From the NCBI GenBank assembly GCA_947259305.1, contig CAMYML010000071.1, positions 1 through 38,468 of the forward strand: DNA of 38,468 nt, in the 5' to 3' direction. The DNA is from an uncultured Gammaproteobacteria bacterium (GTDB taxonomy: Bacteria > Pseudomonadota > Gammaproteobacteria > GCA-001735895). Made by a program: the position numbers and the translations under genes. Shown here piece by piece: positions 32,817 to 36,590 of the stretch; the first letter of the stretch is position 1, and the number at the start of each line of letters is the position of its first letter. Under the pieces are notes generated by a model. It had not been told where the DNA came from. It saw only the letters and a program-made list of their open reading frames with translations, and ran no database searches.

Positions 32817-33602
32817 TTAGTCTTTGCCGAGGCTTAACACCAGCTGGTCGCCAATCCATTGTTTGAGAAATCCCGCCGCCACCAGCGCCACCTGCTCGGC
32901 GTCGATCCACTCGAGCAGGCCCTCGCATATTGCGGCGAAATTCGCGCCCTCCGCGGCCTGTTCGATTGCCCAGGCTTCGTGCACCTCGAGTGAGCGCCAG
33001 TAGGTTTTCAGCTCCCGGCGCCATATCAGCCAGCGTTGCGGAAAGTCACTGCGCCGTGCTTGCGGCACTTCGGTGCCGGTGTCGATCGCGTTTTCGATGA
33101 GTGCGACGTTCCAGTGCAGGTCCAGCCACAACATCGCCGGCTTGAAGCGGAATGTCAGCTCGGGCCAGGCCTCGGGTGGGACCTGCGCCATGTCCTCGAG
33201 CTGGAACAGCGATTCGCTGTCGGCGGCATCGAACACCAGGGATTGCGCCCATTCGTAGCTGGCCAGCTCCTGCAGGAATTCCTGCTCTTCGCCCGCATAA
33301 ATATCGCGCAGGTACGCGGGCAGGTGCTGGCCGAACCAGCGCACCGACGGATGAGTCGAAGGATAGTGCCGCAGGTAATCCAGCGCCAGGTTCTCGAAGG
33401 CGCCGCGGCCGAGGTAATGCGCCAGCGCCGAGTAATCTACCGCCAGGCAATCGATCAGACGGATGCGGTAGGCATTGTAATAGGTGCCGAGACGATGCTC
33501 GGCAAGCGCGTTTTCGGTGCTGATGATGTCGGCTTCGATGTCCTCGGATTTACCGATCAGGTAATCCTGGAAGCGCAGCTGCAGATCGCGCAAATGCGTC
33601 AT
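32817..33602 (-). CDS. bufC: DUF2063 (BufC/HvfC-like) MNIO partner protein
   Basis: 261 aa; LRDLQLRFQDYLIG...ALAEHRLGTYYNAYRIRLIDCLAVDYSALAHYLG...LDYLRHYPSTHPSVRWFGQHLPAYL; 4-bp overlap with the DUF692 gene. Confidence 0.83.
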   Translation of the reverse strand: MTHLRDLQLRFQDYLIGKSEDIEADIISTENALAEHRLGTYYNAYRIRLIDCLAVDYSALAHYLGRGAFENLALDYLRHYPSTHPSVRWFGQHLPAYLRDIYAGEEQEFLQELASYEWAQSLVFDAADSESLFQLEDMAQVPPEAWPELTFRFKPAMLWLDLHWNVALIENAIDTGTEVPQARRSDFPQRWLIWRRELKTYWRSLEVHEAWAIEQAAEGANFAAICEGLLEWIDAEQVALVAAGFLKQWIGDQLVLSLGKD

Positions 33603-34444
33603 TTTCCGGCCTGGTAATAGGGTGCCGCGATGGCGCGCGCATGGTCGAGTTCTTCGAGCACGGCCTCGAGCGCGGGGATATTACCGTCACGTTCGATCAT
33701 CGTCGATACCGGGCCGAAACGCCTCGCGGTTTCCTCGTACAGCGCCCACACCGGGTCGATAATGTCCTGGTCGTGGGTGTCGATAATCAGGTTGCCGTCA
33801 TTGGTATGGCCCGCCAGGTGATGTTGCCAGACGCGCTCGCCGGGAATGCCCGCGAGATAATCCACCGGGTCGAAATGGTGGTTGAAGCTACTGACATAGA
33901 TGTTATTGACATCGAGCAGCAGGTAACAATCCGCCTTTTCCGCGATCGCCGAGAGGAATTCCCATTCAGGCATGGCGTCGTCGCAGTAGGTGATGTAACT
34001 GGACAGGTTCTCGATCAACATCTGGCGGCCGATGAAATCCTGTACCCGGGAGATGCGGTCGGCGAGATGATTAACGGCTTCCTGCGTGTAGGGCAGGGGC
34101 AGCAAGTCGTGCATATTCCTGTGATCGACCCCGGTCCAGCAAAGGTGATCGGAAAACCAGCGCGGCTCGACACGTTCGATCAGGGCCTTGAGCTGCCTGA
34201 GGTAATCGAAATCCAGTTCGTCGGTGCTGCCCAGCGACATGGATACGCCGTGCATGACCATCGGGTAATCCTGGCGGATCGCATCCAGGAAATACAGCGG
34301 TTTGCCGCCGTCGATCATGTAGTTTTCACTCAGGATTTCAAACCAGTCGACGTTTTTCGGTTTGCGTTCGAGGACGTCCTGGTAATGTTCCGCGCGCAGG
34401 CCGAGGCCAAATCCGAGGAAGGGTTTAGTTCTGCTTTCAGTCAT
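33599..34444 (-). CDS. bufB: DUF692 multinuclear non-heme iron-dependent oxidative enzyme (MNIO; BufB/HvfB-like)
   Basis: 281 aa; GFGLGLRAEHYQDVLERKPKNVDWFEILSENYM, VMHGVSMSLGSTDELDFDYL, SDHLCWTGVDHRNMHDLLPLPYTQEAVNHLADRI, LLLDVNNIYVSSFNHHFDP, HLAGH. Confidence 0.92.
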   Translation of the reverse strand: MTESRTKPFLGFGLGLRAEHYQDVLERKPKNVDWFEILSENYMIDGGKPLYFLDAIRQDYPMVMHGVSMSLGSTDELDFDYLRQLKALIERVEPRWFSDHLCWTGVDHRNMHDLLPLPYTQEAVNHLADRISRVQDFIGRQMLIENLSSYITYCDDAMPEWEFLSAIAEKADCYLLLDVNNIYVSSFNHHFDPVDYLAGIPGERVWQHHLAGHTNDGNLIIDTHDQDIIDPVWALYEETARRFGPVSTMIERDGNIPALEAVLEELDHARAIAAPYYQAGK

Positions 34445-34489
34445 TGATGCGGTAGCTATTCTGAATCGAAATCATTGTAGCCAGCGGGC

Positions 34490-34521
34490 AAAAAAAATGC
34501 ACCGGCAAGACCGGTGCATTT
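34490..34521 (-). terminator. Perfect intrinsic terminator between the precursor-peptide gene and the DUF692 gene
   Basis: Minus strand: AAATGCACCGG-tcttg-CCGGTGCATTT followed by further T's (T8 run 34497-34490); 11-bp perfect stem, 5-nt loop; ~21 nt after the precursor stop. Confidence 0.88.
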
Positions 34522-34542
34522 CTATGAGCCGAGAAAGTCAGC

Positions 34543-34794
34543 TCAGGCTTCGAATTTACCACCTGAGTCTTCACACTCAGACTTGGTGCGTTTGACCCAA
34601 CCCTGGCCGGCGCAGGAATTTTGACCCGCACAGCTGGTGGTTGCGGTGGCGCAGGCGCTGGTACCCTTGCATGAATTGACGTTAAAGCATTTACCCGCTT
34701 TTTCGGCCGCAGTAGCGCTCATCGGCGCAACAGCGAACATGGCAGCTGCAGCAGCAGCCAGGGCGACCCCGGTGGTTTTCTTAGCTGAAATCAT
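34543..34794 (-). CDS. bufA: Cys-rich secreted MNIO substrate candidate (bufferin-like precursor)
   Basis: 83 aa from ATG at 34794 (preceded by GAGGAAA): MISAKKTTGVALAAAAAAMFAVAPMSATAAEKAGKCFNVNSCKGTSACATATTSCAGQNSCAGQGWVKRTKSECEDSGGKFEA. Sec-type signal, six Cys, immediately upstream of DUF692/DUF2063 genes. Confidence 0.85.
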   Translation of the reverse strand: MISAKKTTGVALAAAAAAMFAVAPMSATAAEKAGKCFNVNSCKGTSACATATTSCAGQNSCAGQGWVKRTKSECEDSGGKFEA

Positions 34795-34911
34795 TGAATG
34801 TTTCCTCAAGTTAATAAACGTTTGGTTGTACTGGTAATTTCCCCATTACGCGAGCTTAGAGGAAGTGATTTTGCAGAAAGTTCATAAAAAAATACAAAAA
34901 TGAGAAAAAAT

Positions 34912-35502: not shown

Positions 35503-36590
35503 ATGTCGGGTAATAGTTTCGGCAAATCTTTCGTGGTGACTTCGTTTGGCGAAAGCCATGGCAGCGCAATCGGCTGCATCGTTGACGGTTGTCCGCCGGG
35601 GCTCGAACTCAGCGCGGACGATCTGCACGCCGCAAGCCCGGGACTTCGCGGCATACCACCCAGCGACGCGAGGATGACGCGGTCCAGATTCTGTCGGGTA
35701 CTTTCGAGGGACGCACCACCGGCACGCCGATCTGCCTGCTGGTGCACAACAAGGATCAACGTTCGAAAGACTACGGCGACATCATGAACCTGTTTCGCCC
35801 TGGTCATGCCGATTACAGCTACCACCACAAGTATGGTTTTCGCGACTATCGCGGCGGCGGGCGTTCGTCGGCGCGCGAAACGGCGATGCGCGTCGCTGCC
35901 GGCGGCATCGCAAAAAAGTATCTGTTCGAGAAATGCGGCATCCAGGTGCGTGGCTACCTGTCACAGCTGGGGCCATTGAGACCGGTTAACTTCGACTGGG
36001 AACAGGTCAACCAGAATGCTTTCTTTTGCCCGGATGCGGAGATGGTGCCCGAGATGGAAAAGTACATGGATGCCTTGCGCAAGGAAGGAGAGTCCATCGG
36101 CGCCCGGATTTCGGTGGTCGCCAGCGGGGTTCCGCCGGGGCTCGGCGAGCCGATTTTCGATCGCATCGATGCCGATATCGCGCATGCGATGATGAGCATC
36201 AATGCGGTCAAGGGCGTCGAGATCGGCGCCGGTTTCGGCAGCATCGAGCTCAAGGGCACGCAAAATCGAGACGAGATTACACCGGCTGGATTCCTGTCTA
36301 ACCATGCCGGCGGCACGCTCGGTGGTATAACCTCGGGGCAGGATATCCTGGTCAGTATCGCGTTAAAACCAACCTCCAGTATCCACCTGCCGGGCAAGAC
36401 CGTCGATATCGACGGCAACGTGGCTGAAATCCGTACCAAGGGGCGCCACGATCCCTGCGTCGGCATTCGCGCCACGCCGATCGCCGAAGCCATGCTCGCC
36501 ATCGTGTTGATGGATCACTTCCTGCGCCACCGCGCGCAAAACGCCGACGTCGACTGCCAGACCCCAATCATCCCCGCTAGCCCCGCTTAG
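35503..36590 (+). pseudogene. aroC: Chorismate synthase, apparent frameshift near the 5' end (ORFs 35503..35787 and 35589..36590)
   Basis: First frame [42 protein letters not shown]; second frame [35 protein letters not shown]...[36 protein letters not shown]...[26 protein letters not shown]. Frames switch at ~35622-35632. Confidence 0.85.

Follow-up and report, generated by a model that had tools for sequence, protein, structure and literature searches.

A hairpin in the bufA2 mRNA, between the bufferin-2 precursor gene bufA2 and the maturase gene bufB, is a conserved feature of BufA2 operons. Its position just downstream of bufA2 and its structure are kept, its stem covaries within the clade of the locus under study, and its U-tract is optional. 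Comparison of these loci makes it fairly probable that the hairpin keeps bufA2 RNA well above bufBC RNA, through leaky termination together with protection of the 3′ end.

The locus lies in the window, the whole 38,468-nt stretch of gammaproteobacterial DNA that was analysed. On its minus strand, bufA2 (34543–34794) encodes an 83-aa bufferin-2 precursor with a signal peptide, recognized by eye, and a Cys-rich core. It is followed by bufB (33599–34444), encoding an MNIO maturase (PF05114, E = 1.9e-112), and bufC (32817–33602), encoding a DUF2063 partner protein (PF09836, E = 5.6e-18). An earlier reading of the sequence alone had named the first two genes bufA and bufB, and rightly so, as their products score above the cut-offs of the NCBIfam models Cu_RiPP_BufA2 (NF050166; 78.8 bits, cut-off 60) and MNIO_BufB (NF050167; 382.9, cut-off 310). 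With a BufA2 precursor, an MNIO BufB and a DUF2063 partner, the three genes form a bufferin-2 operon. Genes bufA2 and bufB are 98 nt apart, while bufB and bufC overlap by ATGA. The hairpin thereby sits between the precursor gene and the modifying-enzyme genes on one strand, the position of an attenuator in a RiPP operon.

Several neighbouring genes were also noted. Upstream of the operon and in the same orientation lies a gene for a retropepsin-like protein; a downstream gene looks, by inspection, like glycine dehydrogenase (gcvP). Close to the operon is a gene for a DUF411 protein (PF04214; 37554–38177, minus strand), a family frequently found near copper genes. The chorismate synthase gene aroC (35503–36590, plus strand) is split across two frames; PF01264 aligns with its main part starting at profile position 37. 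As this gene is normally essential, the split is probably a sequencing or assembly indel.

The hairpin occupies 34490–34521 on the minus strand, where the arms AAATGCACCGG (34521–34511) and CCGGTGCATTT (34505–34495) enclose the loop TCTTG. The T-tract runs to 34490 and counts eight T in total, three of them inside the stem. The sequence-only reading had described this 11-bp perfect stem, 5-nt loop and T-tract at the correct coordinates, and its distances of about 21 and 45 nt to the neighbouring genes also proved accurate: 21 nt separate the bufA stop codon (34545–34543) from the stem, and 45 nt separate the end of the T-tract from the bufB ATG (34444). With a stable, GC-rich stem-loop and a U-tract directly 3′ of it (T8 in the window copy), the element is shaped like an intrinsic terminator. 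The stem is beyond chance expectation. Folding of 34480–34530 with RNAfold gave −25.5 kcal/mol (z = −4.85), a value reached by none of 200 shuffles. No other perfect stem of at least 11 bp occurs in the window; shuffled windows contained a mean of 0.1 such stems, none with a T6 tract (40 shuffles). A simple terminator scan of the window did not list the hairpin, presumably because the stem absorbs part of the T-tract.

Other identities for the element were considered and rejected. On the plus strand the hairpin is followed by CTATGAGCC and has no T-tract; it is one-directional, which rules out a bidirectional terminator. A DNA-uptake-like or other genome-wide repeat was ruled out because the 4.29-Mb genome has just 14 GCACCG-N3-9-CGGTGC palindromes, and its 13 copies of AATGCACCGG compare with 9 of the reversed control pattern. 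An Rfam search of the hairpin region returned no known RNA family at gathering score; a weak match to sroD at 34493–34578 (23.9 bits, cut-off 50) was regarded as chance.

Comparison with related loci indicates that the hairpin is under selection, since it is kept in all genus and family gaps with compensatory changes in the stem. Of 57 related genomes searched, 42 yielded BufB, and each of the 28 bufA2–bufB gaps analysed from the genus and family contains the hairpin, nearly all with a T-tract. Across the clade alignment, 97.7% of the cells of a 12-pair helix are paired, while slid controls of the helix alignment reached only 31–48%. Two-sided changes numbered 15 compared with 3.8 in shuffles (0 of 500 shuffles as high) and affect four of the 12 pairs. 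The sequence-only reading had proposed comparison across homologous loci as a check, with the lack of a hairpin in related loci as grounds for rejection; the hairpin is clearly retained, and it covaries.

To see how far the feature extends, we pooled the gaps from BufA2 searches of 274 class genomes and of a named genome collection, whose bufA2 loci include those of Cocleimonas flava and of Pseudomonas sp. strains; the survey covers Proteobacteria and a few other phyla. It yielded 104 distinct bufA2–bufB gaps, 99 of them longer than 45 nt. A strong hairpin was present in 97 of these 99, mostly starting 5–30 nt past the bufA2 stop. Single-threshold counts are too weak on their own, because 40% of 100-nt shuffles reach −12 kcal/mol, so each gap was compared with its own dinucleotide shuffles; 78 of the longer gaps beat all 30, where about three would be expected. 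Hairpin sequences differ between families, so what is conserved is where the hairpin lies and how it folds, not its sequence. The U-tract varies more. When tracts swallowed by extended stems are included, a T-run of at least five occurs in 27 of the 29 gaps with the core motif of the window; in the 70 gaps outside this clade, 23 have a T-run of at least five, 11 have four and 36 have three or fewer. The feature shared by BufA2 operons is therefore a 3′ hairpin of the bufA2 mRNA, not a terminator as such, and its shared function is not intrinsic termination alone. The earlier description of a textbook terminator inside the operon thus holds for form and position in the window's own lineage, where the hairpin is conserved and covaries, but not for the roughly one-half of hairpins in other lineages that have no U-tract.

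The hairpin also accompanies bufA2 genes that stand alone. Ten of 16 orphan bufA2 genes have a hairpin that beats all 30 shuffles, among them both orphan genes in the genome that contains the window: one (L105, G000:C32) has an 18-bp perfect stem and the other (L108, G000:C41) its own strong hairpin 3′ of bufA2. The window's TGCACCG stem recurs, with T8, in an orphan of a sister genus (L114). In the window's genome we found a single bufB, besides two orphan bufA2 genes beyond the operon copy, and one maturase may serve three precursors there. As controls we used precursors of the BufA1-like and EGKCG types, assigned by a simple motif in a small sample (15 each). In 10 of 15 and 12 of 15 cases, respectively, no more than 45 nt separate them from the MNIO gene; the gaps are usually 3–20 nt (medians 11 and 18 nt). 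None of these short gaps (45 nt or less) contains a hairpin, and a few longer control gaps (L040, L041) do contain stems. As a separate observation, a Cys/Lys-rich CKGxxSCKG precursor type before MNIO genes has a gap hairpin in three loci (L219, L208 and L026), in L219 with a T8 tract.

Alignment of upstream regions revealed a candidate ECF-type promoter of bufA2, GAACTT-N17-TCTAA (34856–34883, minus strand), highly conserved across the genus and to some extent in sister genera. It resembles ECF sigma promoters, which makes ECF its putative sigma class. The Shine-Dalgarno sequence of bufA2, GAGGA (34803–34807, minus strand), is near-invariant in the aligned relatives, whereas anti-Shine-Dalgarno energies gave no clear counterpart for bufB of the window; median duplex energies are −5.6 (bufA2) and −2.5 kcal/mol (bufB). 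The translation signals thus point to a preference for precursor over enzyme, in the same direction as the hairpin. SigF, an ECF factor, controls both Caulobacter operons of this general kind, and copper induces them (PMC3511200, PMC8224329).

BufA2 operons have the U-tract form and the U-less form at the same position, and therefore the simplest common function would be an excess of bufA2 RNA over bufBC RNA, which might be reached by termination, by protection or by both. Each route has precedents. A leaky terminator behind the precursor gene is an accepted means of making precursor in excess in RiPP operons (PMC7113386), and intercistronic hairpins without U-tract protect the upstream message from 3′–5′ decay (PMC5927463). 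In the reading that we favour, the hairpin would cap the 3′ end of the bufA2 message within the bufA2-bufB-bufC operon. Transcription would begin at the conserved ECF-like promoter, and in the window's lineage the hairpin and T-tract would act as a leaky intrinsic terminator that halts part of the polymerases, while those that continue would produce the bufBC mRNA. The same stem would block 3′–5′ decay of the bufA2 segment. The expected outcome is abundant precursor RNA and scarce enzyme RNA, a dosage bias that would be reinforced by the good Shine-Dalgarno sequence of bufA2 and the usually poor one of bufB. Here, we infer promoter activity, the degree of termination, stabilisation and the ratios of RNA and protein from sequence. 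The precursor-mRNA excess proposed in the sequence-only reading is thus still the best reading, with leaky termination as its putative cause. Published co-transcription by RT-PCR concerns gig operons, which by their description are not of BufA2 type.

A stem this strong (about −19 kcal/mol), followed by T8, could also bring about nearly full termination, in which case bufBC would need another promoter, an alternative already raised in the sequence-only reading. A candidate exists in TACAAT (34474–34479, minus strand), a −10-like motif between the T-tract (10 nt away) and bufB (29 nt away). In the alignment, TACAAT or TACACT is kept in 19 genus loci, usually 9–12 nt past the T-tract and about 28–31 nt before the bufB ATG, within an otherwise variable spacer. 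However, we found no clear −35 hexamer at normal spacing, a promoter scan of the window detected nothing at this site, and the motif is absent from sister genera and other families that retain the hairpin. Full termination with a separate weak promoter for bufBC is the likeliest alternative, though clearly less probable than the leaky terminator. We consider it improbable that the hairpin does not terminate at all and only protects the bufA2 mRNA 3′ end after cleavage of bufBC, as in puf or malEFG. The many gaps outside the clade with no T-run above three near the hairpin would fit such a role, as would the stems of orphan bufA2 genes and locus L066, where a 19–20-bp stem is accompanied by a T-run of four away from the stem end. 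Decay protection alone would, however, not require the T-runs of at least five that are kept almost throughout the window's clade. A regulated attenuator, in which metal or translation state chooses between terminator and antiterminator, would suit an operon encoding a copper-binding peptide and a small stem that, in the window and in some members of the genus, overlaps the stop codon of bufA2, but is very improbable, as predicted folds show two independent hairpins with no competing or alternative structure and Rfam gave no family or known aptamer at gathering score.

The favoured arrangement, a hairpin that biases the operon towards precursor RNA, resembles RiPP attenuators such as the putative imperfect terminator that follows btmD in the bottromycin cluster, cited with further examples (PMC7113386). 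In both, a hairpin lies just 3′ of the precursor gene, with the enzyme genes downstream and an excess of precursor transcript expected. The bufA2 product, however, is a copper-binding bufferin with an MNIO maturase, and its hairpin occurs almost throughout the family, in many cases without a U-tract. Decay-terminator hairpins of puf and E. coli (PMC5927463) are likewise strong intergenic stems, often U-less. There the upstream segment is more abundant, an excess that for bufA2 is predicted, and the window copy differs in its T8 tract, which also gives it intrinsic-terminator form. The gig/BufA1-type and HvfA (EGKCG)-type operons share an MNIO and DUF2063 pair after a Cys-rich precursor gene, but with the close, hairpin-free spacing described above. 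The papers on bufferins or related MNIO peptides that were consulted mention neither a hairpin nor a terminator, and no useful paper came from literature searches on bufferin and terminator or on nisin-type readthrough. The kind of device is known, while its generality in BufA2 operons seems undescribed; what is new is its extent, as a BufA2-specific hairpin with an optional U-tract.

We tentatively propose that a 3′ hairpin belongs to bufA2 almost as an obligate component, travelling with the gene also to orphan sites, free to evolve in sequence and able to switch between terminator and non-terminator forms. It would decouple the dosage of peptide and enzyme, while BufA1 and HvfA would be coupled by close spacing. 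Bufferins are recently described copper-binding peptides, and if the proposal is true, BufA2 would be produced in bulk as a copper sponge while the enzyme is kept at catalytic amounts. A near-universal hairpin found only with BufA2 would offer a direct, testable reason for differing peptide:enzyme dosage between MNIO branches, and the natural variants with and without a U-tract could separate termination from decay protection at one operon position.
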